Of a stretch of 64,000 nucleotides of DNA, positions 4,744 to 35,394 are shown in pieces. Source of the stretch: Haloplanus sp. HW8-1 (lineage in GTDB: Archaea > Halobacteriota > Halobacteria > Halobacteriales > Haloferacaceae); the NCBI RefSeq assembly GCF_023703795.1, contig NZ_CP098518.1, positions 3,410,001 through 3,474,000 on the forward strand. Reading direction: 5' to 3'. Below the pieces are notes generated by a model. The model saw nothing but the letters and a program-made list of their open reading frames with translations. It did no database searches and had not been told where the DNA came from. Every line of letters starts with the position of its first letter. The stretch's first letter is position 1. Both the position numbers and the translations under genes were made by a program.

Positions 4744-7700
4744 CTACGCCTCCAATCGACTGCGCACCCACTCCACCGGATACATCGCCGTCAGCCCCGG
4801 CGTCTCGAGCCGGAACTGCTGGGGTGGCGTCGTCTCCGCATACGTCTTCTCGACCCGCGGCTCGCCGTCGGCCGGATCGTTGAGGGCACTGAGTACCTCG
4901 TGGCCCGCCCGCTGGGTCATCACGATCCAGATCGCCTCGTCGACATCGCACGCGGCGATCTTGTCGAAGTCGGACGGCACGGCCTCGTGGATGTCGTTGT
5001 TGATGCGCTCGACCTCCACCGCAACCCGGATCGCGCCCTCATCGTCGAGGCCAGCAATGTCGAGCCGGTGGTTGTCGTCCAGATCGTAGTATGGCACCAC
5101 CTCGACGACGGGCGAGTCGGGGTCGTCGACGAACGCCTGTGTCAGATACCGACGGCCCACCTCGACGGCGAAGACGTGCTGACTCGACTCCTCCAGATCA
5201 CCCTCGCCATGGCCGTAATCCACCCCCTGGCGATAGTGTTCCCCGATGACGTCCCGGCCCGCGGGGGACACCGAATAGAGCCGATGGGGATGATCCGTGT
5301 CGTGCCGCAGAAGATCGGAGGCAAGCAGTTCGTCGACCGCCTCGCGATCGATCCCGACGTACTCCTGCAGGCGGAGCATCGAGTCGCGGAGCAGGTCGTA
5401 GCCCGGTGGCTCGTAGCGACGTTGCTGGGCGTTGTAAACCGCCTGCAGGAACATGAGCTGGGCATCCGACCAGTCGCTGTCCGCTCGCTCCGCCGGTGTG
5501 AGCTTCAGGTTCAGGTCGCAGATCGGGATATCGTCCCGGTTGACTGCCTCGGGATCGTGACAGCAGGCGATCGCGCGCTGCATCCCGGCCGGCGAGGGAT
5601 CGTAGCGATTGTCACAGGTGTCACAACGGAGCGCGTGGAGTGCACCGTCGTACTCGACCCAGGCCGGAAGCCGCATCGTGTGGGGCAGGGCGGAGTCGAC
5701 GCGACGGTCGGGATCGGTCGCCGATTCGGCGTCGGTCTCGGTGGTGGGTTCGGGGTCGGTGAGCGGCACGCCCGCCTGCGACCGTGTGCGCGCCCGCACG
5801 GCGGCGATCGCGTCGGCGACCTGGTCGGCGCCGGCCTCAGCGGCGCGGGGGCCCGTCTCTGCAGCCGGATGGCCGGCTGGCGGGCGGGCGGACTGCAGTC
5901 GGAAGGGGCGGGGTGCCGGCGTGTCGAAGCCCGCGGGCAGACTCGCGAGCCACTGGCCGCGCCGGAGGCCACGCAAGCGATTCGCAACGGCCTCCGCAGG
6001 GTGGTCGTCGGTCGCGAACCGTTCGGCGAGGTCCGGATCGACGCCGATCGGGCCCGTGAGGACGGTGCCGACGTTGTTGAGCACTTCGTCGGTCGCGGCC
6101 CCCGTGGGATCCGCCTGGTCAAGTTGGCCGGGGAACTGCATCGCGAGCGTGAGCGCGCAGTCGAAGCCGCGGCCCTGGGCGAGCAAGGTCGTCACGAGAT
6201 CCGTCGCCGCGACGCTCGCGGCCTCTTCCAGATAGCAGTTGACCAACGGCAACTGGTCGGCCGCACGGCGTCGGCGCCGACGGCGCAGGGCCGTCCAGAG
6301 GTTCGAGAGGAGGACGAGCGTGATCGCGCGCCGTGTCTCGACACGGAGGCCGCCCAGATCGAGGACGATCACCACGTCCTCGTCGAGATAGTGGCCGAGA
6401 TCGAAGTGAGCGTCACCATCACCGTCATCGTCACCGCCACGGTCGTCGCCGGACGCCGCCGACGTTTCAGCGTCAGCAGTGGGCCCCACGGCGTCGGGGG
6501 CGGTCCTGATCGCATCGGGCACGTGGTCGAACAGACGCGCGAGCCGTCGGTCGGCCGGGATCTTCTCCAGGCGATTGGCCACGCCCTGCATCACTTCGTC
6601 GAACGTGCGGGCGCGGTTCGCGACGACACCCCCGAGCATGCGTTCGAGATCGGGATCCGAGACGGAGGGCGCCGACTGGCGTTCGTGCATCCGACGGGCG
6701 GCCCCGTGCAACTCCCGGTGCGTGAACGCGTCGGCGCCGTGGACGGGATCGAACTGTGCGCGGACGAGATAGCGGATGATGTCGGGGGCGCGGACAGCCT
6801 GTTCGAAGCGCTCCCGCCCCATCAGTGCAGTCAGGATCTCGATGTAGTGATCGACGATGTCGTCGACGGCGGTCGCCCGCGGAACACCCGCCTCGACATC
6901 GGGGCGGACGTCGAAAAACGAGATGGCGGGGAGGACCTCACTGCAGTCGAAGTAGCGGACGTTGTCGAGGTGGCCGTACGCCGCATAGTGCGCACGGAGG
7001 TAGTCCGTGGCCATGCCGTCGCCCTTGGGATCGATGAGGAGATCAGCGCCGTCGGTCGCGGCGTGGTTGTCGCGGATGGCCCGGACGAGCGCCGTGGACT
7101 TCCCGGAGCCGGTGCGACCGAGCCACGCCGTGTGGAGGGGCTGCAGGGAGAGCGGCAGGGCGATGGGCTCGTCGGCCGCGGTGCCGTCCTGATCGAGCGG
7201 GCGGCCGAGGGTGAGGCCCGGGGGCTCGTAGGCGTCGAGCCGCGTTGTCGGCGGCTTGGGCTGGGGCGCGCGGTCGGCCGGGAGCACGTCGAGCGCGCGG
7301 CGACTCGCGGCCGGACAGGCCGCCCCGTCGAGGAGCCAGAGACTCCCGAGCGCGGCCGCGTCGACGACGAGCCCCTGACTTCGCAGCGGTGTGCCCGGGA
7401 GACGGGTGCGAAGGGCCGCGTAGCGCGGCGGGTGTACGCGACGCTCGCGGACGGCCGTGGCAACCGCGGCGGCGTCGTCCCCGCGCACCCGTCGCGTCGT
7501 GAGTGTGTAGTGGGGCCCCGAACATGCGCTGAACGCGGTCGCACACTCCCTGAGCGCGTGGTCGGGGGCAGGGGGTGCCCCGGTGTCGGTCCCGGCGTCG
7601 GTCCCGGCGGCCACGAGGCGGGCGTTCACGACGAACGACCGCGCCGGTTCGGCGGCCGCGATGGCGTCGAGTCGACTGCGATCCGAGGCCGGAAGGGCGT

Positions 7701-8385
7701 TGGCTGCGCCCGATCCCGGTCGCGTCGGATCGGCGTTCGCCGTGGGGGCGTCTAGGCCGAACAGCGTCGTCAGGACCTGCTGACCGAGGGTATCCTGCCC
7801 GGCCTCGATGTCCGCACGCCGGGCGTCGGCGGCCGCCGTCCAGTCCGGCTTGGGCTGGAGGAGCACCTGATATACCATCGGCGTCTCTGCGGCGGCCATC
7901 GTCTCGGCGACGGCCGCGAGCGGGATCCGCGCCTGGTCCTCGGTGTAGAACCGCTCGAACCGGGTGAGGCGGGTCTGCCAGTCCTGGCGGCGATCCGGCG
8001 CACCCTCACAGACGAGAGCGACCGGGGCGGCGTCAGTCGCGGTGGTCGGATCCAGCGTCGCCGGCGCTCGCTCCACGCGGTCGATGGCATAGGTGTCCGG
8101 GAAGAGCGTATGACAGAGGCGATCGAGTGGGTTGAGGCCGGTCGCCTGTCCGGCCGCATCGATCCCGACGAGGTACTCGATTCGGTCGCCATCGCTGTGG
8201 AGGCAGCCCTCGATCGTGGGTGGGTCGGTGCTGTCGAGGAGGTCGGTGAGGCCTGTCCGCTCGCCGTCGGCGAGTGCATGGAGGCGCCGACACTGCAGAT
8301 GGACCGTTTCGGGGTCGAGCGAATCGGTCGCCGGCTGGATGCGCAGATACTGGCGGGTGGCGGGCGCGGACTCGTCGCGTGACAT
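4744..8385 (-). CDS. VirD4/TraD-like coupling ATPase with zinc-finger and nuclease-like C-terminus
   Basis: 1213 residues. An ATPase core of the HerA/VirD4 (type IV coupling protein) kind is shown by Walker A GRTGSGKST at 423-431, LLIDPKGDG at 449-457, the strand VVIVLDLGGL at 671-680 and CYLEEAASV at 718-726. The N-terminal 400 residues are a haloarchaea-type domain I cannot name. The C-terminal third adds a possible zinc finger (C921, C924, then CCH at 941-943), a winged-helix-like segment near 970-1060 and, at 1071-1160, a pattern like PD-(D/E)XK nucleases: E1075, D1109 in RLDIAG and AVEVE at 1122-1126. I infer a DNA pump for element transfer. It is distant from the VirB4 operon but belongs to the same system. 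Confidence 0.75.
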   Translation of the reverse strand: MSRDESAPATRQYLRIQPATDSLDPETVHLQCRRLHALADGERTGLTDLLDSTDPPTIEGCLHSDGDRIEYLVGIDAAGQATGLNPLDRLCHTLFPDTYAIDRVERAPATLDPTTATDAAPVALVCEGAPDRRQDWQTRLTRFERFYTEDQARIPLAAVAETMAAAETPMVYQVLLQPKPDWTAAADARRADIEAGQDTLGQQVLTTLFGLDAPTANADPTRPGSGAANALPASDRSRLDAIAAAEPARSFVVNARLVAAGTDAGTDTGAPPAPDHALRECATAFSACSGPHYTLTTRRVRGDDAAAVATAVRERRVHPPRYAALRTRLPGTPLRSQGLVVDAAALGSLWLLDGAACPAASRRALDVLPADRAPQPKPPTTRLDAYEPPGLTLGRPLDQDGTAADEPIALPLSLQPLHTAWLGRTGSGKSTALVRAIRDNHAATDGADLLIDPKGDGMATDYLRAHYAAYGHLDNVRYFDCSEVLPAISFFDVRPDVEAGVPRATAVDDIVDHYIEILTALMGRERFEQAVRAPDIIRYLVRAQFDPVHGADAFTHRELHGAARRMHERQSAPSVSDPDLERMLGGVVANRARTFDEVMQGVANRLEKIPADRRLARLFDHVPDAIRTAPDAVGPTADAETSAASGDDRGGDDDGDGDAHFDLGHYLDEDVVIVLDLGGLRVETRRAITLVLLSNLWTALRRRRRRRAADQLPLVNCYLEEAASVAATDLVTTLLAQGRGFDCALTLAMQFPGQLDQADPTGAATDEVLNNVGTVLTGPIGVDPDLAERFATDDHPAEAVANRLRGLRRGQWLASLPAGFDTPAPRPFRLQSARPPAGHPAAETGPRAAEAGADQVADAIAAVRARTRSQAGVPLTDPEPTTETDAESATDPDRRVDSALPHTMRLPAWVEYDGALHALRCDTCDNRYDPSPAGMQRAIACCHDPEAVNRDDIPICDLNLKLTPAERADSDWSDAQLMFLQAVYNAQQRRYEPPGYDLLRDSMLRLQEYVGIDREAVDELLASDLLRHDTDHPHRLYSVSPAGRDVIGEHYRQGVDYGHGEGDLEESSQHVFAVEVGRRYLTQAFVDDPDSPVVEVVPYYDLDDNHRLDIAGLDDEGAIRVAVEVERINNDIHEAVPSDFDKIAACDVDEAIWIVMTQRAGHEVLSALNDPADGEPRVEKTYAETTPPQQFRLETPGLTAMYPVEWVRSRLEA

Positions 8386-8562: not shown

Positions 8563-9075
8563 TCAGTCCGCAAGTGACTCGAGCTTCTGAATGATCTTCG
8601 CGTAGACGGCAGGGGCGCAGTACCAGCCCTCGTCGATCATCGCATCAATCACGGTTCGGGCATCGTCGACACCGAGCGTCCCATCGCTAGCGAGTTTCAG
8701 CACGAGATATGCCGTCCCTCGGGTGGTGATTCCCTCGGCCGCTGCAACGTCACGACCGTACGTCTCATCCATCACGGCCACGCCATCGTGGGCGTCTGCG
8801 CAGGCGAGGACAGCGACATCGGCATCGCTGAGGTTGCTATTATCCTGGAGGCGGGTCAGCAGTGGGGTGGTCTCGACCGACATGATATCAAACCGGTCGG
8901 CGTCGACGCTGCGCTCGATGCGACGGGCGTCCGGATATCCCTGCTCGAGACCAGTTTCGACGACCTCCTCGTAGACGCGCTCCGGGAGTACGCACGACGC
9001 TTCAAAATGCTGGACGAGCGCGAGACGGTCGATCTTCGCGAGGTAGATGAGCGGCGTGGCGTCGAAGATCCACAT
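8563..9075 (-). CDS. PIN-domain toxin (DUF3368-like)
   Basis: 170 residues starting MWIFDATPLIYLAKID, the D5-x-(S/T)P N-terminal motif of DUF3368-type PIN proteins. Further acidic residues are in LPERVYEEVVETG, in LSDADVAVLACA and in VAVMDETYGRDVAAAEGI. In this subgroup the toxin pairs with a UPF0175-type antitoxin, exactly what is encoded immediately upstream with no intergenic base. It is predicted to be an Mg-dependent RNase. The pair probably stabilises the element. Confidence 0.85.
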   Translation of the reverse strand: MWIFDATPLIYLAKIDRLALVQHFEASCVLPERVYEEVVETGLEQGYPDARRIERSVDADRFDIMSVETTPLLTRLQDNSNLSDADVAVLACADAHDGVAVMDETYGRDVAAAEGITTRGTAYLVLKLASDGTLGVDDARTVIDAMIDEGWYCAPAVYAKIIQKLESLAD

Positions 9076-9366
9076 TCACAGCGCCTCGAGATCAGCGTCG
9101 AGATGGTCGTCCGCTACCCACGTGATATCACGTTCTTTGGCGAGTTGGGCAAAGTCCCAGACTGACATCCCTGCCAGCTCAGCCGCCGTGCTAAACGTGA
9201 CGGTGCCTGCCGCGAGTTGATCGAGGGCCTGTTCGCGACGCCACGCTTCGAGTCCCTCGGAGAGGAGTTTCCGAACGGCCGTACTCCGGTCGAGCTTCTC
9301 GGCCTCGAGATACGCCTCGAGTTCGGCCTCCAACTCGTCGGGCACGCGTGTCGAAATCGTTCCCAT
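9076..9366 (-). CDS. UPF0175-type antitoxin with N-terminal ribbon-helix-helix
   Basis: 96 residues. Positions 1-45 form an RHH DNA-binding unit (GTISTRVPDELEAELEAYL, then LDRSTAVRKLLSEGLEAW). Positions 50-80 carry the UPF0175 signature AAELAGMSVWDFAQLAKER, and the acidic tail would bind the PIN toxin. The start was set at the ATG only six bases from a perfect 18-bp palindrome that also overlaps the TATA box, which strongly suggests leaderless transcription and autoregulation. The stop abuts the toxin ATG. Confidence 0.87.
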   Translation of the reverse strand: MGTISTRVPDELEAELEAYLEAEKLDRSTAVRKLLSEGLEAWRREQALDQLAAGTVTFSTAAELAGMSVWDFAQLAKERDITWVADDHLDADLEAL

Positions 9367-9372
9367 ACTGTT

Positions 9373-9390
9373 TACATCGTGTACGATGTA
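9373..9390. promoter_or_regulatory. Palindromic operator over the antitoxin-toxin promoter
   Basis: TACATCGT, two central bases, then ACGATGTA: a perfect dyad ending six bases before the antitoxin ATG. Its upstream edge overlaps the TATA-like TATACA at 9388-9393 (minus strand). Dyads of this size suit dimeric RHH repressors, so the antitoxin is the likely ligand. Confidence 0.7.
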
Positions 9391-9492
9391 TACAAGCGCT
9401 TCGGTGCTTCCGATGGAGTGGCTCCGGTGTGGTGAAGCATATTCACAGTCACTGAAAGAGATCGGTGGGATACGGGAGATATCAACCAACAA

Positions 9493-13477: not shown

Positions 13478-14554
13478 TTAGTTGATCGGAAACCGAAGGA
13501 GTGCTCCAAGGCCCCCGAATGCAGTATCGAACTGGGCACCTCGATCTGTGTCAGTCGACACAACGAGACACTCACCGCCTTGGTCGGTCGTCGCTTCCTC
13601 CAGCTCACGAATGGCCGCTGGTGGCCGTGCGTCGGAAACGAGAAGGACGTCGACTGCTCCATAGTCGAGGGCGGTTTGCGTTTCATCAGCTCCGTAGGCG
13701 ACATCTCCACCCTGACCCAGCGCCGTGCAGAACCGATCGAGGGCTTCCCGCTCCCGTCGGCGCTCAGCATCAGACAGTACGTCCTCGGCACGCTCAATGA
13801 GCTGCGCGAGACCCTGCTTGGTCGCGTACTCAATCTGATAGACGCCTCGTATGTGGTCCCGCAACTCGTGGTGGAGATAGTCACCCTGCTGGAACTCGTC
13901 GACGGTGATCGTCGTCCCGCCGAGGATGACGCCATCGACAGTGGGCTCATCGAGGAACGTCTGCTCGGCAGCGTCGGCGACCTGCTCGAAGAACTCGTGT
14001 TTCTGGCGGTCGCGCTCGCGTTCGAATCGCTGCGCACTCTGACCGCCAGCACGGGATTTTCCCATCACCTGGCTCTCGAAGGTCCGGCTGGAAACGATGC
14101 GTTCGCCGGCGAGGCGATCGAGGGCGGCACGGCCCCGTTCGAGGACGATCAGACCGTACACCGCTGATGGGGTGAGCGCCTGCTCGACGGGGGCTGTCTC
14201 GAATTCGGCTGCACAGCGGTACAGTGAGACGTCGACAGGGACGTCGAGATCGTCGAAGACGGCATCCTGCAGCTCACCGTCGACGACACCAGCGTAGATG
14301 ACGAGGCCGCTTGATGGCGTCGCTTCGTACACTTGGAGGAGGCGTCGGATACGTCCGAGAGCGTCCTGGACGTGAGTTCGTGTCTGATCGGATTTGATGT
14401 TCGCAGCCTGTGCATATTCGCGGTCGATGCGCCCACGGACCGCATGGAGTGATTTGTCTGGCGGGACGGCCACAGTGATGAGCTCGGTGCCCTCGCCACG
14501 GTAGTTTGTGAGCTGGTCAATTCGATCGCGGAGTTCGTACTCGGTGGTCTGCAT
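13478..14554 (-). CDS. Release factor aRF1 paralogue lacking the domain-3 zinc mini-domain
   Basis: 358 residues. It has every hallmark of archaeal/eukaryal class-1 release factors: PPDKSLHAVRGRIDREYAQ, stop-codon-recognition motifs NIKS (52-55) and YxCxxxF (YRCAAEF, 122-128), the peptidyl-hydrolysis GGQ (170-172 in AGGQSAQRF), and domain 3 with GDYLHHELRDHI, VDVLLVSD and FDTAFGGLGALLRF. Chromosomal haloarchaeal aRF1 is about 415 residues; here the zinc-binding mini-domain after LLLSE/LLVSD is absent, leaving about 25 residues. The start was chosen at the MQTTEYELRD Met, which aligns with the family. I infer either an alternative or competing terminator, or a rescue factor, carried by the element. 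Confidence 0.85.
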   Translation of the reverse strand: MQTTEYELRDRIDQLTNYRGEGTELITVAVPPDKSLHAVRGRIDREYAQAANIKSDQTRTHVQDALGRIRRLLQVYEATPSSGLVIYAGVVDGELQDAVFDDLDVPVDVSLYRCAAEFETAPVEQALTPSAVYGLIVLERGRAALDRLAGERIVSSRTFESQVMGKSRAGGQSAQRFERERDRQKHEFFEQVADAAEQTFLDEPTVDGVILGGTTITVDEFQQGDYLHHELRDHIRGVYQIEYATKQGLAQLIERAEDVLSDAERRREREALDRFCTALGQGGDVAYGADETQTALDYGAVDVLLVSDARPPAAIRELEEATTDQGGECLVVSTDTDRGAQFDTAFGGLGALLRFPIN

Positions 14555-14950: not shown

Positions 14951-15356
14951 CCGGTGAGCAAGCTCACCGGCGTCCCGCTCACTCCGTTCGCGGGACCTCC
15001 GCGTCGCTCGCGACCGACCATTCCGGGCGTGCGGGCGCTCTCCGCACCGCCCGCGCCCGGTCCGGGCTAAAATGCATGTGCCCTCGCGCCAGCGCTTCTC
15101 CCGTTTCGGTCCCGGACTTCCGGAGGCTTCCGGGACTCCCCGACCCGCGACGGACGTGGTTGCGTCGCGGGCGAAACGGGGAATGCGCTGGCCGCTCGCT
15201 CCGGGCGGGTCGGCGCGCGCGGCTGGATGGGTGGCCAGCCCGTCGGCGCGCGCCGCTCGCGCCCTGACGGGCGCTCACTACGGCGCGAGCGGCGCGCGCA
15301 GTCACGTCTGGCGGGCTGTGTCCGTCAGAACCCACCGCGTTGGAGGCGCGGTGGGT
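14951..15356. repeat. Dense palindrome array (candidate replication or transfer locus)
   Basis: At least eight near-contiguous perfect dyads. They include CCGGTGAGC/GCTCACCGG (14951-14970), GTCCCG/CGGGAC (14972-14996), GTCGC/GCGAC (15003-15014), nested CCGGGC and GTGCGG stems (15023-15060) and the three-way junction at 15089-15191. An 18-bp perfect inverted repeat with an 18-base spacer lies at 15246-15299, and a 10-bp stem ACCCACCGCG/CGCGGTGGGT at 15330-15356. It ends 34 bases before the RPA-like gene. No protein-coding frame here looks real. Such arrays suit origins, transfer sites or structured RNA. Confidence 0.8.
15089..15191. ncRNA. Candidate structured RNA or cruciform: three-way junction
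   Basis: Four perfect stems fit together. P1 is CCAGCGC (15089-15095) with GCGCTGG (15185-15191). P2 is CCCGTTTCG (15100-15108) with CGAAACGGG (15172-15180). P3 is GTCCCGG (15109-15115) with CCGGGAC (15130-15136). P4 is CCCGCGAC (15144-15151) with GTCGCGGG (15164-15171). P2 is contiguous with both P3 and P4, so the strands would stack around a closed junction. The pairing is too regular for chance, but strand, transcription and conservation cannot be judged from here. Confidence 0.45.
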
Positions 15357-15390
15357 GGGCGCCGTGCAGCGCCGTGGAGCAAGTACTCCG

Positions 15391-16236
15391 ATGTCAGATA
15401 GGAACGCCATCGCTGAAGAGGTTTGGGTCGACGAACAGATCGAACGAACACGCGAGCAGCGCGAGGCGGATGCAGAGCGAGCCGACACGCCGGCCCTCCG
15501 GCCGAGCGTCGAGCAGGACACCCAGGCAAAAGTCGATCACGCGGACGACGAGTGGGTCGACGGCCGGCTGTTCGGCCAGACGCTCGCGGCCGAGGAGCAA
15601 CACAAGGCGCGCGAACAGGAGATCGCCCGGACGCGACGCCGGCTGGACGACCGGCAGGACTCGGATCGGGAAGCCCGGACGCGCCGGCGGGTGACCGAGC
15701 GGGCGGCGACGTGGCACGAGCAGACGCAGCTGACCGATGCGCGGGAGCACCTGTCCCAGGACGATCTGGCCGCGGTGAACCAGCAGGCACAGCGGTTGTG
15801 CGAGCGGCTGGGGGCGGGACGGCGGCTGTCGCGGTCGCAGATCGCCCGGAAATTGGCCGAGCACGTCCTGGCCGGTCGGGAGCTGTTCGAGGCGGTCATC
15901 CAGATCGCCGAAGCGGCGGAGACGGCGCCGGGACGGATCATCCCGATCGAGGCGGTGCCCGAGGTGGACCGGGGCGAAGTGAGCATCGAGGGGAAAATCA
16001 AGACGCTGTTCGAGAGCCAGCATCCCAAGATCAGTCAGGTCGGGCTGATCGGGGATGAGACGGCGAAAATCAAGTTCACCAGTTGGCGGCGATCAGAGCA
16101 ACCCACCGTGCGCGAAGGCGAGCGGGTGCGGTTCCGGGCTGCGGCGAAAAACTGGTACCGGGGTCGCTGTTCGGTTGCGCTGACGAGCACAAGTCGGATC
16201 GAGTTCCCGAATCGCGGCCGGTGGTGGGACGCGTAG
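15391..16236 (+). CDS. RPA-like OB-fold single-stranded-DNA-binding protein
   Basis: 281 residues. The N-terminal 130 residues are highly charged and helical (coiled-coil-like, QIERTREQREADAERADT). Residues 145-190 form a helical bundle (LSRSQIARKLAEHVLAGREL). Residues 205-275 are an OB fold: GEVSIEGKIKTLFESQ, QVGLIGDETAKIKFTSWRRS, REGERVRFRAAAKNWYRGR, VALTSTSRIEF. This is the classical RPA OB signature. It likely protects single-stranded DNA during replication or transfer of the element, in keeping with the polymerase and palindrome array nearby. The start was chosen at the ATG giving MSDRNAIAEE. Confidence 0.8.
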   Translation: MSDRNAIAEEVWVDEQIERTREQREADAERADTPALRPSVEQDTQAKVDHADDEWVDGRLFGQTLAAEEQHKAREQEIARTRRRLDDRQDSDREARTRRRVTERAATWHEQTQLTDAREHLSQDDLAAVNQQAQRLCERLGAGRRLSRSQIARKLAEHVLAGRELFEAVIQIAEAAETAPGRIIPIEAVPEVDRGEVSIEGKIKTLFESQHPKISQVGLIGDETAKIKFTSWRRSEQPTVREGERVRFRAAAKNWYRGRCSVALTSTSRIEFPNRGRWWDA

Positions 16237-18040: not shown

Positions 18041-20200
18041 TCACTCCGGATTCGTGAACGTCGTCAGTTCCGGCACCCACGTCTCAGCCAGTTCCCGGCG
18101 AATCTTCGCCCGGTCCCACCCCAACGGTGACAGCAGGCTTTCGACCGCTCTGACGAGCTTCGTCTCGTAGTACGACGGATCGTACGACTCGATCTCTTCG
18201 TGGGCCAACGCGACCCGCTCCCGCGAGGTCGTCTCGTCGTCCACGACCACGTACTCGATGTCCTGTCCCGGATGGACAGTGAGGTCCTGGTCGTGCGCAC
18301 GCTGCAGGGCGGCCACGTTCTGCGTTTGGGTAGTATACCCTTCGAGTGGCTTGGAGACGCGATTCCGTTCGACGAGCTGCTCGACCGGCACCGTTCCGGC
18401 ATGAAGACGCTTGATTGCGTCCTGAAGACGGTCGAGTACCGCCTCCGGCGACCGGGTCGTATCGAAGCGTTCGAGACACGCCCGTTGGACGGCCTCGATG
18501 AATGGTGGGGTCGACCGCTGGCGCGCCTCGATCCCCCGAATCTTGAACTCGTCCGTGTCGGCGACCGTGCCGAAGTATTTGGTCAACGCACCGGCCTGGC
18601 TCTCGCGCTGTGGGACGAACGCAACCCAGTCGTAGTGCGCTTCGTGTTCGAGTCGGATGTCCACTATCTCGGTGATCTCCGACGCCAGCGTATCGAGCGC
18701 CGTACGCTGATCGGCGTCGACATCGGGATCCGGTGTCACCCAGATCGAGTCGACGATCCCGTGGACGACGCGCCAGCCCCCGGCTTCCAACCGCTGTTTC
18801 GCCGTCAGCAGAATCTCACGGGCGAACGCGTTGATCGCCTCGTGACACTCGATCCGGCCGAACTTCGCGTTGTTGAACCCTTGATAGCCGAAGCAGGCGA
18901 CGAGGATCCACTTGAGCGCCCCCGACCGACCGTCGAGCGCGTCGAGGCGGGCCTCGTCGGGGGCGTCACGTTGCTTCTCCCGGCGGAGTGCAGCCTTGAT
19001 CTCGTCACGGGTGTCGATGATCGGCTGCAGGACGTCGACGAGATAGCCGCGATCGTCGCAGATGGCGTAGTCGAGGTCGGGCACGTCGGCGCGGTCTCGA
19101 TGGCACTCGCACCGAATCACGTCGGGGGAGACGTTTCGGGTGCAGATGATGTTCGGATACAGACTGGAGAAATCGAGTTCGTGGACGTCTTCGTGGACTC
19201 CCACATCGGGCGCGAAGATGAAGCCGCCGCGGTCGGCGTCGTGGAGCGTCCCCATCGATTTGAACCGTTCGTGGCGCCAGGAGCGCCAGGGCACGAGCAC
19301 GTCGCGGGCGTGGGCTTCACGGATCTGGATGGCGGTGAGGACGTTGCCGATCGAGGCCCAGGCGAGTTCCTGCAGGGGTTTCCGGGACCGCGAGACGAGA
19401 TCGAGGACGCCGTCGAGGTTCGTCTCCCCGTAGAAGAACGTGTTCGACTCGTCGATGATCGCGCGGCCGGGGATGTTGTACCGTGCCGGGGAGTGACCGA
19501 CGCGGCCGTAACTCGCATACGTGGAGCGGCGTGCGAGTTGCTGATAATCAACGTCGGGCCACCGACTCAGTGTGAAGTCGTCGATCGCCGCCGTCGTGGC
19601 CATCTCGTGGAGTGTCGGAATGAGCTGACTCGTCGCACAGATCACGACGTCCGGGTCGTGGGTTTCGACTGCAGCTTGGACGGCGGTCAGGATGTCTGTC
19701 GCGGAGCCGCTGACCGTCTCGCCGTCGATGGAGAGCGTCGTGTACGTCTCACCGTGCGATTCGGGCTTCGGCACGCCGAGGCGGAGCGTCGACAGGTCGG
19801 TCGCTGGTGTCGGGTCGCGATCGGTTTCCAGACAGTAGCGAAATTCGCGTGTAACGTCGACGTTGAAACAGGCGAGATCGCCGACGGGGACGTCCGCGAG
19901 CTGACGTGCTTGGCGTGCGAGCGGCGTGACGCGAGTGATCTGCGCGGTGTCGACGGCGAGGACGGGCGCTTCGTCTCGCCGAAACGCGGGGCGTCGCTCG
20001 ACGATCTGGGTCCTGACGACGTCCGGATGTCGGTCGTAGACCCTCCGGAGGGTCGTGAGATCGACGTCCAGCTCCGGTGAACGGGGCGCGACGTAGAAGC
20101 GCGGCGTGTACTCGTCGTGCTCGGTCACGACGGCGCCGTCGGTGGTCGCCTCCCATTCGAGGACACGGCCGTCGTCGAGGAAGTCGATGGTGAACGGCAT
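18041..20200 (-). CDS. polB: Divergent family-B DNA polymerase of mobile elements
   Basis: 719 residues. Polymerase motif A is DFSSLYPNI (343-351). Motif B is K430-WILVACFGYQGFNNAKFG. Motif C is HGIVDSIWV (480-488), in which the usual first Asp of DTD is replaced by Ile while the catalytic second Asp is kept. The exonuclease I motif (D-x-E) expected near 135-145 reads STLRLGVPK, so proofreading is probably lost. It is the last gene of a leftward operon with the two upstream small genes (3-base gap). It likely replicates the element, perhaps as a translesion-like enzyme. Confidence 0.88.
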   Translation of the reverse strand: MPFTIDFLDDGRVLEWEATTDGAVVTEHDEYTPRFYVAPRSPELDVDLTTLRRVYDRHPDVVRTQIVERRPAFRRDEAPVLAVDTAQITRVTPLARQARQLADVPVGDLACFNVDVTREFRYCLETDRDPTPATDLSTLRLGVPKPESHGETYTTLSIDGETVSGSATDILTAVQAAVETHDPDVVICATSQLIPTLHEMATTAAIDDFTLSRWPDVDYQQLARRSTYASYGRVGHSPARYNIPGRAIIDESNTFFYGETNLDGVLDLVSRSRKPLQELAWASIGNVLTAIQIREAHARDVLVPWRSWRHERFKSMGTLHDADRGGFIFAPDVGVHEDVHELDFSSLYPNIICTRNVSPDVIRCECHRDRADVPDLDYAICDDRGYLVDVLQPIIDTRDEIKAALRREKQRDAPDEARLDALDGRSGALKWILVACFGYQGFNNAKFGRIECHEAINAFAREILLTAKQRLEAGGWRVVHGIVDSIWVTPDPDVDADQRTALDTLASEITEIVDIRLEHEAHYDWVAFVPQRESQAGALTKYFGTVADTDEFKIRGIEARQRSTPPFIEAVQRACLERFDTTRSPEAVLDRLQDAIKRLHAGTVPVEQLVERNRVSKPLEGYTTQTQNVAALQRAHDQDLTVHPGQDIEYVVVDDETTSRERVALAHEEIESYDPSYYETKLVRAVESLLSPLGWDRAKIRRELAETWVPELTTFTNPE

Positions 20201-24110: not shown

Positions 24111-25574
24111 ATGTCGACCTCCCGGGCCGTCATCCTCGTTGTGATCGTCGTCCTTGCAGGCTGTAGCGGTATTGGGGGCGATACCGGTCGTCTGTCCACG
24201 GAGACGGCCACGGCGACGGGCACACAGTCTGCAACAGCGACGACCGCACCGGATGCGTCGGCGACGCCGTCGGGAACGCTTGAGATTCACGTCATCAACG
24301 TCGGCCAATCGGTGAGCACGCTCCTCGTCGCGCCCTCGGGAGAGACGATGCTCATCGACACCGGTGATTTCACCGACGATGGGGAGTACGTGCTTCAGTA
24401 TCTCCAGCGCCACGATATCGCGCGGATCGATCATCTGGTCGTGAGCCATAACGACGCCGACCACATCGGCGGGAACGCCGCCATCATCGACTACTACGAA
24501 ACCCACGCCGATGGTATCGGCGTGATCCATGACCCCGGGATCGCTGCCAGCACGCAAACCTACAACGAGTACCTCGATGCCGTCGAAGCACACGACGTTC
24601 GACTCGTCGAGACCCGCGAGGGGGACTCGCTGTCGTTCGGCGGTGCTGCAGTCGGGGTGCAAGTCCTCGGTCCACCGGACCCGTATCTCGAAGATGGGGC
24701 CCGTAACGAGAACAGCATCGTCCTCAAATTCACCTTCGGATCGACGAGCTTCCTGTCTACCGGGGACGCCGAAGACGATCAGGAAGCATACCTCGTCGAG
24801 CAGTACGGGACACACCTCCGTGCGACAGTCCTGAAAGCCGGACACCACGGGAGCAAGACGAGTACGGGTGGCGCCCTGTTGGAGGCCGTCCAGCCGGAGA
24901 CGGTCGTCATTTCGAGTGCGTATGACTCACGATACGACCACCCGAACGATGAGACGCTCGGGCGGTTGGCCGAGCGCTCGATCCCGACTTACTGGACGGC
25001 GACCCACGGCGATATCGTCGTTGTCAGCGACGGTCGCGGTGTCTCGGTCCGGACACAGCAGGCGGCTCCGACCGATCCCCTCGCGCTCCGAGACGGGACC
25101 GCGGTTGCGCCTGGCACCTCGGCGCCAGTCTCCGATCGAGCACGCTTCGGTGGCCGTCCGGTCACTGAGTCCACAACGACGCCTGACGGGAGTCCATCCG
25201 CGACAGCGACCGCGACGATGACCGACGGCGGATCAGTCCCGGCAGAGGCGATCGCCCTCGCCGAGATCAACGCCGACGCCGACGGCAACGATAACGAGAA
25301 TCTGAACGACGAGTACATCGTCCTCGAGAACACGGGTGACACGGCGCTCGACCTGTCTGGGTGGACGCTCACCGATGCAGCGGATCACACCTATACATTC
25401 CCTGCGGGATTTACGCTCCCCGCTGGCAGACAGGTCACGATCCACACTGGACGCGGGACCGACACCGACACCGATCTCTACTGGGGGCAAGACTCGGCCG
25501 TCTGGAACAACGGTGGCGACACAGTCACCGTTCGGACGGGTGAGGGAACTATTGTCCTTGCGGAGGAGTACTAA
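24111..25574 (+). CDS. Secreted lipoprotein: ComEC-type metallo-beta-lactamase plus lamin-tail domain
   Basis: 487 residues. Lipoprotein signal: hydrophobic VILVVIVVLAGCSG with lipobox Cys20, followed by a Thr/Ala-rich linker. Residues about 60-320 are a metallo-beta-lactamase fold of the ComEC/Rec2 class: INVGQSVSTLLVAPSG, MLIDTGDF, SHNDADHIGGN (HxHxDH-like metal site), FLSTGDAEDD, LKAGHHGSKTS. Residues about 390-487 are a lamin-tail domain (EYIVLENTGDTALDLSGWTL). Such enzymes may cut extracellular DNA or nucleotides. The next gene (2-base gap) is its usual DUF3006 partner. The start was taken at MSTSRAV for the signal peptide. Confidence 0.85.
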   Translation: MSTSRAVILVVIVVLAGCSGIGGDTGRLSTETATATGTQSATATTAPDASATPSGTLEIHVINVGQSVSTLLVAPSGETMLIDTGDFTDDGEYVLQYLQRHDIARIDHLVVSHNDADHIGGNAAIIDYYETHADGIGVIHDPGIAASTQTYNEYLDAVEAHDVRLVETREGDSLSFGGAAVGVQVLGPPDPYLEDGARNENSIVLKFTFGSTSFLSTGDAEDDQEAYLVEQYGTHLRATVLKAGHHGSKTSTGGALLEAVQPETVVISSAYDSRYDHPNDETLGRLAERSIPTYWTATHGDIVVVSDGRGVSVRTQQAAPTDPLALRDGTAVAPGTSAPVSDRARFGGRPVTESTTTPDGSPSATATATMTDGGSVPAEAIALAEINADADGNDNENLNDEYIVLENTGDTALDLSGWTLTDAADHTYTFPAGFTLPAGRQVTIHTGRGTDTDTDLYWGQDSAVWNNGGDTVTVRTGEGTIVLAEEY

Positions 25575-27671: not shown

Positions 27672-28700
27672 CTACTGCATCGGTGACGTCGTCGACGCGT
27701 CAACGAGCGAGTACTCACGGTCGCGGCTCGTTCCCGTCGCTTCAAGGAGGTTATACTGCGCCATCTTCGACAGATAGGACCGCACCGTCCGTTTCGTCCG
27801 TGGCTCATCAACCACCGCCGTATAGCGCTCGTGTATCTCTCCCGGACCGAGGGGGCCGTGTTCACAGACGATATCGTACACGGCACGCTGGTGTGGGGTG
27901 AGCGAATCGAGGCTTTTCTGTTTGATCTGCGCTCGGGCGTCGGCGGCAGCGTCAAGGAGCATCTCGTCGGTGATTCGCTCGTGATTCTCCCGATCGGCCG
28001 CGCTGGCCGCAGTCCGCAGGATCCCGATGGCGAGCCGGGCGTCGCCCGCGGCGGCATCCGCGATCCGATAGAGCTGCGCCTCGGTGATCGCCTCGGGAGC
28101 TAGGCCCCACTGTGTTCTGGCCTGCAGGATATCGAAGAGTTGCTCGTCGTGGTACTTATCCATCCGCACGTGCTCGCTCGCACGGAGCCGGCTGACGAGG
28201 CGGTCGTCGACGCGGCTGAACAGCTGTTCTTCCTCGTTCGCGATGCAGACGAGCGCGAACTGAGAGAGGCTGTGGAGGTCGTAGATGATGCTTGGATCCT
28301 GAAGCTGGTCGACCTCATCGAGGATGATCACGGTTCGCGGCCCGTCGTACTGCTGTAGACGGTCGACCAACTCGTCGTGTGGTGTCGACTGGCGGTGGAT
28401 ATCGATTGTCGCCCCCAGATCGTCGAGGATCTGATACAGGGTGCGAAATCGCGTGTAGTTCCGCCAGCAGTTGACGTAGGTCGCCTCGATGCCGAGGACT
28501 TCCTCGCGTAGTCGTTCGGTAACGAATCGGGTGATACACGTCTTGCCGGTGCCGCTCGGCCCGGTCACGACGGCCGTGTTGGCCGGTTCTCCGTTCGTGA
28601 TCGGTTCGAGCACGCTGGAGAGATGGTTCACTTCGGCGTCGCGATGCTCAACTTCCTGCGGGACGAACCCTGCCCGGAGGACGCGTGCATCGCGGATCAT
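27672..28700 (-). CDS. orc1: Orc1/Cdc6 replication initiator
   Basis: 342 residues starting MIRDARVLRAGFVPQEVEHR. AAA+ features: Walker A GPSGTGKT, Walker B VIILDEVDQL, sensor 1 VCIANEEEQLF with LVSRLRASEHV, sensor 2 GDARLAIGILR. A C-terminal winged helix follows (LTPHQRAVYDIV, RTVRSYLSKMAQYNLLEA). A TATA-like TTTTTATTA about 33 bases upstream supports a leaderless start here rather than at a further upstream codon. It should bind repeats next to its gene and start replication of the element. Confidence 0.9.
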   Translation of the reverse strand: MIRDARVLRAGFVPQEVEHRDAEVNHLSSVLEPITNGEPANTAVVTGPSGTGKTCITRFVTERLREEVLGIEATYVNCWRNYTRFRTLYQILDDLGATIDIHRQSTPHDELVDRLQQYDGPRTVIILDEVDQLQDPSIIYDLHSLSQFALVCIANEEEQLFSRVDDRLVSRLRASEHVRMDKYHDEQLFDILQARTQWGLAPEAITEAQLYRIADAAAGDARLAIGILRTAASAADRENHERITDEMLLDAAADARAQIKQKSLDSLTPHQRAVYDIVCEHGPLGPGEIHERYTAVVDEPRTKRTVRSYLSKMAQYNLLEATGTSRDREYSLVDASTTSPMQ

Positions 28701-28751
28701 CTGGTCGTACGTGGGTGTTTTCGGGGCACATAATAAAAACGTGCTCGCGTC

Positions 28752-28866
28752 GTTTCCGGAAAGCGCTGGGGCTGCGCATCGGTGACCCGACACGTGTACC
28801 GAGCGATTGCACTCTACGGCGCCTCTGAGCTGCTGCCTCCTGGTACGTTCCGGTTTCCGGAAAGCG
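28752..28866. repeat. Paired GTTTCCGGAAAGCG repeats beside orc1 (origin candidate)
   Basis: The 14-mer GTTTCCGGAAAGCG occurs at 28752-28765 and 28853-28866, same orientation, 101 bases apart, immediately upstream of Orc1/Cdc6. Its core TTTCCGGAAA is a dyad. Haloarchaeal origins normally lie next to an orc1 gene and hold origin-recognition boxes; these repeats are the best local candidates, though they differ from the ORB consensus I recall. Confidence 0.5.
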
Positions 28867-29024: not shown

Positions 29025-29498
29025 ATGTCCGAACGACTCCATCCACTCGATCGGTTAGACGTCTCGCCACGGGTCCTGAAACGCGCACAGTACGAAGCCC
29101 TCGCCTTCTTCATGCGACCACCGTACGTCGAGGTTCGCAACTACAGCTACCCTGACCCGGAGAACCACACGTACAACGTTCGTATCGCCGACGGAGTCCC
29201 GATCCGCTGCAGCTGTCCAGCGGACGTGGAGTACGAACGCGCCTGCAAACATCGGGTCGGCGTTGCAATCCGCACCCAAATCATCGAGAAGGCACTCAAG
29301 GCACAGGTTGCGGCAGATGGTGGTGGCGTTGCCAATCGGAGGGCTGCAGGACTCGGTGACGACGAGGCGAGGTCAACAGCCGGAGACGAGACTGCGGACT
29401 GTGCGTGTCGTCCCGACAGTCACCGTCCTTGTTGGTCGTGTGTCCGGGCGAATCGACGGACGTCGACTGACACCGACGGCGCCCGAGAACAACGCTGA
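29025..29498 (+). CDS. SWIM zinc-finger protein
   Basis: 157 residues. The SWIM motif is CSCPADVEYERACKH (C-x-C-xn-C-x-H, about 62-76) after VEVRNYSYPDPENHTYNVRI. SWIM fingers bind DNA or partner proteins and are common in haloarchaeal plasmids. The C-terminal third is disordered and Cys-containing (CACRPD, CWSC). The start is ATG 24 bases after the copy-1 dyad. Confidence 0.75.
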   Translation: MSERLHPLDRLDVSPRVLKRAQYEALAFFMRPPYVEVRNYSYPDPENHTYNVRIADGVPIRCSCPADVEYERACKHRVGVAIRTQIIEKALKAQVAADGGGVANRRAAGLGDDEARSTAGDETADCACRPDSHRPCWSCVRANRRTSTDTDGAREQR

Positions 29499-29537
29499 GA
29501 CAGCGCATATCGAGGGGCTGGCCGGTGCTCATCGGCC

Positions 29538-29570
29538 CGGTTATTCGCGCCCCCGATGGGTGCGGGGCGC
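29538..29570 (+). promoter_or_regulatory. CGGTTAT plus GC dyad, copy 2 (TFB gene)
   Basis: CGGTTAT at 29538-29544, then the same stem arms GCGCCCC (29547-29553) and GGGGCGC (29564-29570) at the same two-base distance as in copy 1. It lies before the TFB gene. Confidence 0.6.
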
Positions 29571-29598
29571 GATGTACTGGGCCTCGCAGGAGTATTCG

Positions 29599-30603
29599 AT
29601 GCAACCAGGCGACGTCTACGAGACGGGGTTCGATGAATCGACCGGCAAAACGACCAGTGAGAGCGCGACGTGCCCCGAATGTGATGGCCACGTCGTGACG
29701 GACGGCGGAGAGCGTCACTGTCCCGACTGTGGACTCGTCATCGACGAGTACCACATCGACCACGGTGCGACAGCACGCAAGGGCCCGGGTGACGAACGGG
29801 ATCCACGACACATCGGTTCCCCGCGGACGCCAGCGCGACATGATTACGGGCTGACGACGGAGATCGGCCGAACGCGGGATGGAACCGGGCGAACGCTCGA
29901 TGGAAAGACGCGACAACGGTTCAGCCGTCTTCGGGTGCAGCATCGGCGGGCGCGACACGAATCGAAGCGTGATCGCAACCTCGAACAGGGCTGTCAGGAG
30001 GTGTCCCGGATCGCCGGCGCGCTCGGATTGTCACGAAGCCTCGAAGAACAGGCAGCGATGGTCTTCCGACGGGCACAGGACGAGCACCTGCTCCGCGGAC
30101 GCTCCATCGAAGCCGTCGCCGCAGCGAGCGTCCATGCAGCCTGTCGGTGTGCCGGGTTGCCACGTTCGATCAGTGAGATCGAACCCCTCGCTCGGGTCGC
30201 GGGACAGCGCGTCCGGAACGCCTATCGCGTCCTGAACGACGAGTTGGGCCTCCCGACGCCACCACCAACGCCGACGGCGTTCGTCCCGAAGTACGCCTCG
30301 GCGCTTGAGGTCTCCACGGCGATTCGCAAGCGCGCCCTTGAGCTGGCGGAGCTGGCCGTCGAACGCGGCGTGGCGAGCGGGCGCCAGCCCTCGGGGGTGG
30401 CTGCGGCCTGTCTGTATCAGGCATCGCTCGAAGCGGGGGCGGGACTGGTACAGACGACGCTGGCCGATCTCGCTGATGTGACACCGACAACGATCCGGAC
30501 GGGCTGGAACGCGGTGTTAGCTGCTATCGACGCGACCGACGGGGCGGACTCGGCCACCGCGGACGCTGGCGGCACGGCCTCTCCGGTACCGGGGGAGCGC
30601 TGA
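29599..30603 (+). CDS. tfb: Transcription initiation factor TFB
   Basis: 334 residues. An N-terminal zinc ribbon (CPECDGHVVTDGGERHCPDC, about 20-40) is followed by the B-finger region (ARHDYGLTTEIGRTRDGTGR) and two cyclin-like repeats (about 130-220 and 225-315; LEEQAAMVFRRAQDEHLLRG, ASVHAACRCAGLPRSISEI, SGVAAACLYQASLEAG). Haloarchaea carry several TFBs with different promoter preferences, and element-borne copies may direct element genes. A further in-frame Met lies nine codons upstream (MYWASQEYS). The next gene begins two bases after its stop. Confidence 0.88.
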   Translation: MQPGDVYETGFDESTGKTTSESATCPECDGHVVTDGGERHCPDCGLVIDEYHIDHGATARKGPGDERDPRHIGSPRTPARHDYGLTTEIGRTRDGTGRTLDGKTRQRFSRLRVQHRRARHESKRDRNLEQGCQEVSRIAGALGLSRSLEEQAAMVFRRAQDEHLLRGRSIEAVAAASVHAACRCAGLPRSISEIEPLARVAGQRVRNAYRVLNDELGLPTPPPTPTAFVPKYASALEVSTAIRKRALELAELAVERGVASGRQPSGVAAACLYQASLEAGAGLVQTTLADLADVTPTTIRTGWNAVLAAIDATDGADSATADAGGTASPVPGER

Positions 30604-32985: not shown

Positions 32986-34323
32986 GTGCCCGCACTCGGT
33001 CCGCGTCGGCGTTCGAACCGCTGGCGATGGCTGACGGTGAGACTGGCCGGTGTCCTCGGCGGATTGCTCGCAGCGAGCCGGCGTGTCGGTGCCCAGTCCA
33101 ACGGCGACGGTAGTGACTCCACCATCACGACCGGGATGATCACCGAGGCACTCGTGGAGGCACTCAAGGGACTCCTCCGGACCCTGTTCACGCCGATCGA
33201 GGAACTCGTCGAGACCTATGGACCTGCGCTCCTTCGCCTGATTGTGGGGACACCCCACCCGAGAGCAGCATTCGGCACCCCCGAGACCGTCCCGTGGACG
33301 ACACTCTATCCGTACTACTGGGACACGATTCTCCCACTCGCGTTCTTGCTGTTCGGACTGGCGGTGGCGCTCGTTATCCTTCTCGAATCGACGAGTCACC
33401 TGTTTAGTGGCTACCACCGCACGAATTTGAAACGGCGGGCGTTCAGTGGATTGCTGGGGATCCTGTCGTGGTGGTGGCTCGCCGCGTTCTCGCTCCAGGT
33501 GACCGACCAGCTCGTCACGCTCTTGCTTCCCGACCTCTCCTCGATATCGTTGTTTCAGACGGTATCGTTCACCGGAATCGGGCTCCTCGGTGTTGTCGCG
33601 TCGCTGGCCATCGATGTCGGTCTGTTCGGCGCCCTCGCGCTCGTGTATTTGGGTCGGCAGCTGGTTCTCTACGGGTTCGTACTCGGGATGCCGCTGTTGA
33701 TCGTGGCGTGGATCCCAGGCGTCGGTCCGTTCAGTTTCGTCGCCCGCTTCGCCAAGCGGCTCGCGGGGTTTTATGTCCCGTTCCTGCTCATGCCGGTGCC
33801 TGTGGCACTCCTCCTTCGGCTCGGTGAACTCCTCGGAGAGGCGGCCACGCTGCCGATGGGTGGGTTTGGCACGTGGCTCACCGCGCTCGTCATCCCGTTC
33901 GTTGCCCTCATCGCGCCGTTCGTCCTGGTCTGGCAGGCCGGAGCGCTGCTGTTCGTTGGTGAGCGCGTGGCGCGGAACGCCTCGCGGAAGCGCTACCGGC
34001 GTCGCGTCGATCGCAGTCGGGAGTTTGGTCGAAAACTCCGTCAAGATGGCCGGACTGCGATGCGAGAGCTGCAGACTCGGTCGCTCACCACGCGTGGATC
34101 GCAGGGCGGGACACAGCAATCGGGCCCGGGCGGAGACCTACGGTCGCTTCCCAGCCGTCTCACACGCCGGGGAACGGGTGAGGCGGACGCCTCGGATGGC
34201 GGGCCACTCTGGGCTGTGGGCAACGACCGGGGCCACCGGTACGCCGAGCCGATTCGCTTCGAACCCGGAGAGTACGACACAGGCAATCGTTCCTCGTCCA
34301 CCGATGATCGTACCGAGCAGTAA
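32986..34323 (+). CDS. VirB6/TrbL-like polytopic membrane protein
   Basis: 445 residues from GTG, two bases after the pilin-like stop. A signal-like start (LTVRLAGVLGGLLAASRRVGAQ) is followed by about six membrane helices between 115 and 330 (for example ILPLAFLLFGLAVALVILLE, GLLGVVASLAIDVGLFGALA). The basic, disordered cytoplasmic tail of about 110 residues is Arg-rich, then acidic. VirB6/TrbL proteins form the inner-membrane channel of type IV secretion. The family call rests on topology and operon position. Confidence 0.65.
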   Translation: MPALGPRRRSNRWRWLTVRLAGVLGGLLAASRRVGAQSNGDGSDSTITTGMITEALVEALKGLLRTLFTPIEELVETYGPALLRLIVGTPHPRAAFGTPETVPWTTLYPYYWDTILPLAFLLFGLAVALVILLESTSHLFSGYHRTNLKRRAFSGLLGILSWWWLAAFSLQVTDQLVTLLLPDLSSISLFQTVSFTGIGLLGVVASLAIDVGLFGALALVYLGRQLVLYGFVLGMPLLIVAWIPGVGPFSFVARFAKRLAGFYVPFLLMPVPVALLLRLGELLGEAATLPMGGFGTWLTALVIPFVALIAPFVLVWQAGALLFVGERVARNASRKRYRRRVDRSREFGRKLRQDGRTAMRELQTRSLTTRGSQGGTQQSGPGGDLRSLPSRLTRRGTGEADASDGGPLWAVGNDRGHRYAEPIRFEPGEYDTGNRSSSTDDRTEQ

Positions 34324-34359: not shown

Positions 34360-35394
34360 ATGAGCAACGACAAATCGCTCCACGATGCAAGCAAACGGAT
34401 TCCGAAGTCGATCAGCACCGAGACGTATATCATCGGGACGTACACGCTCACCGATCTCGCTGTCGGCGCCCTCCCGGGTGTCGCCATCGCCTTGGCGATC
34501 CAACTGGCCGTTCCGCCCGAGATGACGGTGCGGGGGTATCGTATCACCGCTCTCAGGCTACCGCTGACGCTCGGGGGGCTTGGGCTCGGCGGCCTTGTCG
34601 TGTATCTGACTCCCACCCATTTGACAACCGCCCAGTGGATCGGGTCGATGCTCGGATTCTGGTATCGGCCGGCACGACTGCCCCACGACGCCGCGATGGC
34701 ACACACACATGTCGAGGCGATCCATCCCGATGCCGACGTGATCGAGCGGACCGACGGGACGATGTTGGGGATCCTGCAGGTCACGCCTCCGTCGATGGCA
34801 CTAGCGACCGACAGCGAGTGGGCGGCCACGGCCGATGCCTTTCGAGAGTTTTTGAACACGTCGGTCGAGTTTCCGATTCAACTGTACGCTACGACCCGAC
34901 AGTTCCCGGCCGACGACTACCTCGCACACTACGACGCACGTCGTACCGATCCAGACGTGCGGGCCAACCCGCAATTGGCACAACTCATCGACGAGTACGT
35001 CGCCTGGTATCGAGAGGACCTCGAACAACGGCAGATGACGATCCGTGATCACTACATTGTCGTTCCCGTCGATCCCTCCGAGGTCCGGTTCGAGAGTCGG
35101 CAACTCACCCAACAACTCACACGGCTTCCGGTCCTCGGTGTCTTCATTGAGGCACTCCTCGCGCCACGTCGTGATGACGAACGCGCCGCACTGATCGAGA
35201 CCGTCGACGAACGAGCTCGGCTCGTGCGACGGGGACTCCGCGAGGTTGATGACTGTGATGCTCACCGCATCTCGGCGGGCGAGGCGGCGGAACTCCTCGC
35301 CTCGTTCTGGCGTGGAGAGAACGTGACGTACGACGATCCGGAAGCGGCGATCACTACGCGACCGGTCGTCGGGGGAGGGAGCGACGATGCTTGA
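34360..35394 (+). CDS. VirB3/PrgI-like membrane module fused to VirB4 N-terminal domain
   Basis: 344 residues. IPKSISTETYIIGTYTLTDL then two membrane helices (LAVGALPGVAIALAIQLA and LPLTLGGLGLGGLVVYLT) match the VirB3/PrgI pattern. Residues 125-300 read like the N-terminal domain of VirB4 proteins (GTMLGILQVTPPSMAL, FREFLNTSVEFPIQLYATTR, HYIVVPVDPSEV, TRLPVLGVFIEALLAP). The stop overlaps the VirB4 ATPase start by 8 bases. So the usual VirB3 and the first part of VirB4 are one protein here and the motor is the next. Confidence 0.7.
   Translation: MSNDKSLHDASKRIPKSISTETYIIGTYTLTDLAVGALPGVAIALAIQLAVPPEMTVRGYRITALRLPLTLGGLGLGGLVVYLTPTHLTTAQWIGSMLGFWYRPARLPHDAAMAHTHVEAIHPDADVIERTDGTMLGILQVTPPSMALATDSEWAATADAFREFLNTSVEFPIQLYATTRQFPADDYLAHYDARRTDPDVRANPQLAQLIDEYVAWYREDLEQRQMTIRDHYIVVPVDPSEVRFESRQLTQQLTRLPVLGVFIEALLAPRRDDERAALIETVDERARLVRRGLREVDDCDAHRISAGEAAELLASFWRGENVTYDDPEAAITTRPVVGGGSDDA

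Follow-up and report, generated by a model that had tools for sequence, protein, structure and literature searches.

A candidate MOBC-like nuclease built into a coupling ATPase from an integrative conjugative-type element of haloarchaea

For a long time archaea have been known to have homologues of VirB4 and of coupling proteins but no relaxases to go with them, and unknown relaxases were proposed for this domain of life in a survey of 2011 (PMC3158045); on the archaeal conjugative plasmids covered by a review of 2025, no relaxase has been identified (PMC12857230). The locus analyzed here lies on the chromosome of Haloplanus sp. HW8-1, whose genome consists of three contigs, and it raises the question of which protein could cut the DNA that such elements transfer. 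By the window we mean the whole stretch of 64,000 nucleotides that was analyzed. The original prediction, made from its sequence, held that no relaxase is seen and that a restriction-type nuclease on the DNA pump itself could process the DNA. The pump, the other putative transfer genes and the ssb-like gene are located as follows.

4744 to 8385, minus strand: coupling-protein-type (VirD4/TraG/HerA-like) ATPase of 1213 amino acids (open reading frame, family matches in relatives)
15385 to 16236, plus strand: ssb-like OB-fold gene, which adjoins the coupling-protein gene in 16 sampled loci
32986 to 34323, plus strand: TrbL/VirB6-like protein (PF19590)
34360 to 35394, plus strand: putative T4SS inner-membrane protein in the VirB3/PrgI position (no Pfam match)
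35387 to 37348, plus strand: VirB4-like ATPase of 653 amino acids (sequence match)

Further genes lie in or beside the element.

13478 to 14554: eRF1-like protein
18041 to 20200: divergent family-B DNA polymerase
24111 to 25574: metallo-beta-lactamase with a lamin-tail domain
27672 to 28793: Orc1/Cdc6
29263 to 30600: TFB

This gene content is that of an integrative conjugative-type element, no ends of which were located, and the 64-kb window contains no tRNA. The VirB4, TrbL/VirB6 and VirB3-position genes lie 25-29 kb from the coupling-protein gene, on the opposite strand. In most sampled relatives VirB4 was found within 0-91 kb of the coupling-protein gene: 10-91 kb away and usually divergent in most chromosomal loci, and directly upstream, as a rule with an overlap or a gap of no more than about 1 kb, in most plasmid-type loci. 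No VirB4 match was obtained in G146 and G013, two genomes with coupling proteins of about 850 residues. Coupling proteins of about 800-890 residues (L065-L071) lack the N-terminal 400 residues. Integrated elements with genes for VirB4 and TraG/VirD4 have been described as the location of archaeal fusexin genes (PMC9259645). In the window, two toxin-antitoxin-like pairs lie near the coupling-protein gene (PIN with an AbrB-like partner and DUF3368 with UPF0175, at 2067-2753 and 8563-9492). DUF234-type ATPases, with a PD-(D/E)XK C-terminus, are frequent neighbors of the coupling-protein gene (nine loci, e.g., L044).

Two relaxase models were searched genome-wide, and neither PF03432 (Relaxase, HUH/MOBP) nor PF13814 (Replic_Relax) was found in the Haloplanus sp. 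HW8-1 genome. PF03432 was present in 8 of 112 haloarchaeal genomes. Moreover, all 83 plasmid records carrying the C-terminal domain described below were typed as non-mobilizable by MOB-suite, and the prediction that no relaxase is seen thus holds for this genome under the two models and for the 83 records. PF13814 scored over its cut-off in none of 116 haloarchaeal genomes, which led us to reject membership of the domain in that family, and it matched no domain homologue among the families listed; a CloDF13-type MobC scores 78.7 bits against the same model. A paper on a haloarchaea-rich plasmidome reports MOBC and Replic_Relax profile matches (PMC8563766), and no such matches over cut-off were found in the genomes studied here.

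The middle of the 1213-residue protein is a RecA-like ATPase of the HerA/TraG class, with a Walker A motif GRTGSGKS at residues 423-430 and a Walker B-like YLEEAA at 718-723. Relatives pass the cut-off of DUF87, TrwB_AAD_bind or TraG-D_C, and the protein of the window itself scores below it. No segment of 19 residues is hydrophobic enough for a predicted membrane helix. The protein shows the traits of a type IV coupling protein, namely a TraG/TrwB/HerA-class ATPase (recognized through relatives) and a VirB4 in the same element. Behind the motor lies a module of three parts, all on the minus strand.

5551 to 5637: Cys finger, C921-x2-C924 ... C941-C942 (residues 917-945), the four cysteines being kept in 43, 41, 40 and 37 of 43 homologues
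5236 to 5484: winged-helix DNA-binding domain (about residues 968-1050; weak PadR, DUF4364 and MarR matches, MOBC profile comparison)
4876 to 5214: PD-(D/E)XK-like, MOBC-relaxase-like predicted nuclease domain with D...ExER (residues 1058-1170; conservation, AlphaFold, profile comparisons)
5176 to 5190: E1066 and H1070, invariant, helix A, the histidine aligning with the conserved His of MobC (alignment)
5059 to 5061: D1109, invariant, strand 2, within RLD, aligning with the PD of MobC (alignment and model)
5008 to 5016: E1124-x-E1126, invariant, strand 3, aligning with the ExER of MobC (alignment and model)

Homologues of this module were found in 124 of 292 haloarchaeal genomes when the C-terminal 318 residues were used as query. 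Conservation was read from an alignment of 43 homologues that represent haloarchaeal families and orders, with 28-85% identity to the protein of the window, in which P907, C921, D1063, E1066, H1070, Y1099, D1109, E1124, E1126, D1131, W1153, L1168 and G1197 are invariant and R1127 is arginine in 41. With such conservation, the residue pattern is no product of chance. The original prediction concerned positions 4744-5180 (residues 1069-1213), just downstream of the finger and winged helix (about 5245-5630), and the residues that it named, E1075, D1109 in RLDIAG (1107-1112) and AVEVER (1122-1127), sit where it had placed them. Within its acidic set, D1109 and those of AVEVE are invariant in the 43 proteins; E1075 varies, being glutamate in only 35 of 43, and the conserved helix residues are therefore E1066 and H1070. 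It had also called the motif degenerate, with E in place of K, a description that gives way to an ExE kept in all 43 homologues. The alignment gives an acidic motif of the form E/H ... D ... ExER, whose ExE is constant throughout the 43 proteins and no decayed ExK. The signature of PD-(D/E)XK enzymes is thereby present, with an invariant D on strand 2 and an invariant ExE, for ExK, on strand 3. In two more distant relatives the ExE is altered, to E-x-I (L079) and E-x-Q (L190). The possible Cys/His finger upstream reads as a Cys finger in the alignment, and the winged helix expected between finger and nuclease is colinear with that of MOBC proteins in the profile match described below.

Structure models of the module were of low confidence. 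In two AlphaFold runs with four sequences, mean pLDDT was 37 and 46; in the better model helix A, with E1066 and H1070, reached 53-78 and most of strands 1-3 reached 55-68. The models, with mean pLDDT no higher than 46, give the order alpha-beta-beta-beta-alpha-beta, with D1109 on strand 2 and E1124/E1126 on strand 3, and the better one runs helix A, strands 1-3, helix B, strand 4, helix C. They suggest a PD-(D/E)XK fold without proving it. A Foldseek search gave no significant match (best E 0.3 in PDB and 0.06 among viral models), and its first 50 non-significant hits include PaqCI, MspJI, YaeQ, a Holliday junction resolvase, R.BspD6I, DrdV and BstEII. Compared directly with Pfam, PHROGs, NCBIfam, PADLOC and PDB sequences, the C-terminal domain matched nothing significantly, and its relatives were absent from viral-contig scans and from the phage collection. 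NucS/VRR_NUC gave no Pfam match among the homologues of the domain, in the families listed.

For profile comparison we used 30 haloarchaeal DUF234 domains (PF03008) and 23 HSDR_N_2 domains (PF13588), both of which we take to be PD-(D/E)XK families, and the nuclease part of the homologue alignment scored 27.9 against the former and 25.7 against the latter. Both alignments are in register, placing D1109 on the D and E1124/E1126 on the ExK. In control comparisons, 100 column shuffles had a mean of 13 and a maximum of 19.4, reversed profiles scored 11-12, and other 164-residue segments of the coupling-protein family scored 10-20. A panel of 19 neighbor-gene families contained a single strong partner for the nuclease part, a DUF234-type ATPase family (26.0), the other 18 scoring at most 18.9; three winged-helix families in the panel scored 23.6-30.9 against the winged-helix part. 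We rejected the readings of the module as a zinc ribbon only or a winged helix only because the nuclease part alone outscores every shuffle. The profile-profile search, which had been proposed as a check of the restriction-type nuclease, was thus positive, the PD-(D/E)XK families scoring above all shuffles, and that reading is supported by the DUF234, HSDR_N_2 and MOBC matches in catalytic register. A spurious similarity, with the C-terminus in some other fold, would fit the models, none of which exceeds pLDDT 46 overall, and the Foldseek result, but three in-register PD-(D/E)XK matches, each above every shuffle, and the predicted core order speak against it; we regard it as extremely improbable. 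We conclude that the nuclease part very probably has the PD-(D/E)XK fold.

Among PD-(D/E)XK enzymes, MOBC relaxases have an N-terminal winged helix, no covalent intermediate has been seen for them, and TraX is active as a relaxase, mutagenesis having confirmed its site (PMC12857230). We built a MOBC profile from nine mobC products, including that of a CloDF13-type plasmid and the replication-relaxation protein of pTEF1 (pAD1-like), and aligned it by hhalign with a haloarchaeal profile of 57 sequences. The match had a probability of 75-83%, a P value of 2.5e-5 to 9e-6 and a score of 42-44 (60 shuffles: mean 13, maximum 18), and it is colinear over 136-139 columns from the winged helix through the nuclease, placing His on His, D on PD and ExER on ExER. 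The motif set of MOBC is present as H1070, D1109 and E1124-x-E1126-R1127: a CloDF13-type MobC reads ...PHRLAVQ...VPDAL...VAFEVERT...DEIWYICPD, and the haloarchaeal protein ...QHVFAVE...RLDIAG...VAVEVERI...DEAIWIVMT. The K-T-R-x-R-Y that follows ExER in MobC is not conserved, the haloarchaeal proteins reading xNHD...AVPxDYDKMA there, and a single-sequence HMM comparison with MobC was weak. In eight of nine bacterial MOBC loci, the coupling-protein gene is followed by mobC, either immediately or nearly so. The CloDF13 record itself (NC_002119.1) has apparent frameshifts in mobB and mobC and is typed as non-mobilizable, and plasmids 96% identical to it have an intact mobC.

MOBC is the only one of the three families whose match runs colinearly through both winged helix and nuclease. 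The winged-helix part of this match is generic, other winged-helix families scoring 24-31, and the nuclease part is no nearer to MOBC than to DUF234 or HSDR_N_2: alone, in the 57-sequence profile, it scored 26.9 with MOBC (shuffles up to 16.6), 25.9 with DUF234 and 26.7 with HSDR_N_2, all shuffles being at most 19. This equal fit would suit a nuclease on the pump that is no site-specific relaxase and whose task during transfer would be to trim or cleave double strands, in the manner of NurA beside HerA-type ATPases or as proposed for Thermus transjugation. In Thermus the donor ATPase, of the HerA/FtsK type, depends on two enzymes encoded in the same mobile element, a NurA-like nuclease and a restriction enzyme (PMC5365140). 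Such a role, however, leaves the fused winged helix and the colinear MOBC match unexplained; ExER and the helix-A histidine are shared with MOBC, and the order of coupling protein then mobC in bacteria parallels the fusion. We consider it unlikely, though it is the foremost of the alternatives. A MOBC-like mode of action by a haloarchaeal domain that PF13814 does not include is plausible on the alignments, as is a relaxase function of the whole C-terminal module.

Variants of the domain bear on whether it is catalytic. Standalone open reading frames of winged helix plus nuclease, 249-322 residues long, occur in several genomes (L080, 6715-7683, and L183-L188), one of them on contig 3 of the present genome, which carries further coupling-protein genes on contig 2 (L078, adjoining VirB4) and contig 3 (L079). 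These standalone frames, the missing lysine of ExK and the one divergent E-x-I copy (L079) would suit a catalytically dead PD-(D/E)XK fold whose sole part, together with winged helix and finger, would be to recognize the DNA for transfer and to bring it to the ATPase, the nick being made by another protein. That D, the two glutamates of ExE and the E and H of the helix never vary among 43 proteins is, in contrast, typical of an active site. BamHI is an active enzyme with an ExE site, and ExE is also the motif of the pTEF1 homologue of TraX, the active MOBC relaxase. A dead fold is therefore improbable in our judgment. A third type of coupling protein (1144-1536 residues, L174-L182) does not match the domain profile and has a PD...EVETTT motif of its own, and the domain bearing that motif scored 26.1 against the haloarchaeal nuclease domain, with shuffles of at most 17.3 (full profile) and 23.0 (nuclease part). 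Proteins of this type have an extra C-terminal domain, primase-like by eye, and VirB4 upstream.

PD-(D/E)XK domains are common in defense, and the HSDR_N_2 match is to restriction-type proteins; the nuclease could on these grounds attack competing DNA, in exclusion or defense, and not the element's own transfer DNA. Yet no PADLOC family rose above noise, no methylase or partner was seen conserved beside the coupling-protein gene, and the domain forms a constant part of the coupling protein and not an optional cargo gene, which makes such a role very improbable.

A candidate cis site emerged from comparison with relatives, in conserved non-coding DNA directly upstream of the ssb-like gene.

15246 to 15299, plus strand: conserved GC-rich hairpin with an 18-bp stem, candidate oriT or ssb leader (comparison with relatives)

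The arms CGCTCGCGCC/GGCGCGAGCG lie at 15254-15291 of the window and occur, in exact form, once in each of 15 loci and nowhere else in 952 kb. Since these loci were picked by the exact arms, evidence can come from the outer pairs alone; the stem continues past the arms with compensatory changes, pair 1 being CG in 7 and TA in 8 loci, pair 2 GC in 7 and CG in 7, pair 3 CG, TA or GC, and pair 4 GC in 8 and CG in 7. In chromosomal and plasmid types alike, the hairpin precedes the ssb-like gene by about 75-120 nt. Its pattern was present in 135 of 292 haloarchaeal genomes: according to hand-transcribed lists, 88 had both hairpin and C-terminal domain, 36 the domain alone, 47 the hairpin alone and 121 neither (Fisher P 2e-13, a value that overstates independence because the genomes are related). 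Furthermore, of the 57 hairpins listed, 39 are no more than 30 kb from a coupling-protein match on the lists, and at locus L184 a standalone nuclease frame lies 1.2 kb from the hairpin. Rfam has nothing at the hairpin, and direct repeats in the gaps nearest the coupling-protein gene formed no convincing relaxase-binding array. In some loci a CGAAAC...TTAAA-like stretch precedes the hairpin; by its sequence it could be a promoter, and an RNA leader of ssb is therefore a live alternative to a transfer origin. We regard the hairpin as a possible but doubtful origin of transfer.

Taken together, a coupling ATPase with a built-in MOBC-like C-terminal nickase, belonging to a haloarchaeal integrative conjugative-type element, is the explanation that we favor by a modest degree. 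The winged helix, perhaps with the finger, would bind the transfer origin, and the site formed by D1109, E1124 and E1126 would bind a divalent metal and nick one strand there, the hairpin upstream of the ssb-like gene being the candidate cut site. Unlike nicking by HUH relaxases, the reaction would involve neither a catalytic tyrosine nor a covalent intermediate, in line with what is reported for MOBC. The union of nickase and motor in a single polypeptide would let the cut strand pass straight to the ATPase ring for export. The broadest form of the proposal is that haloarchaeal conjugative elements carry a restriction-endonuclease-type relaxase (MOBC-like, D...ExE) inside the pump, that two types of coupling protein have it while a third has a similar motif, that it acts at the ssb hairpin, and that it is the relaxase that archaeal conjugation seemed to lack; this we offer tentatively, as rather less probable than the pump-borne nickase itself.

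A conserved nuclease fused to the pump is a concrete relaxase candidate that can be mutated. It would explain why searches for relaxases failed and suggests a handover in which the cut end stays on the motor. In the open-access literature searched, which excludes subscription journals, we found no description of the fusion seen here. If the hairpin is a transfer origin, haloarchaeal transfer becomes directly testable and many plasmids typed as non-mobilizable need re-typing.

Among known systems, the haloarchaeal ATPase shares with the coupling proteins VirD4, TraG and TrwB the RecA-like core of the HerA/TraG class, the Walker motifs, a VirB4 in the same element and, in relatives, weak to over-cut-off TrwB_AAD_bind and TraG-D_C matches; unlike them, it has no predicted transmembrane segment and carries an N-terminal extension of about 400 residues and the C-terminal nuclease module. 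In the Thermus system of TdtA, NurA and Tth111II, a HerA/FtsK-type donor ATPase likewise depends on nucleases of the same integrative element, whereas these are separate proteins, T4SS homologues are lacking, and no DNA-binding domain was detected on TdtA (PMC5365140). Conjugative plasmids of Sulfolobus and of Thermococcus (pT33-3), which have VirD4 homologues, also rank among the closest systems. DUF234 ATPases and HSDR_N_2 proteins have a PD-(D/E)XK-type domain whose D and ExK align with D1109 and ExE, but they keep the canonical K and lack the coupling ATPase and a colinear winged-helix match, the DUF234 domain being borne by another ATPase family. In MOBC relaxases (CloDF13 MobC, pAD1 TraX), too, the winged helix comes first and the PD-(D/E)XK-type domain second, the shared conserved residues being a helix-A His, a strand-2 D and a strand-3 ExER. 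The haloarchaeal module differs from them in being archaeal and fused to the coupling protein, in its extra Cys finger, in the absence of KTRxRY and in being missed by the PF13814 model; the bacterial order of coupling-protein gene and then mobC is the domain order of the haloarchaeal fusion.
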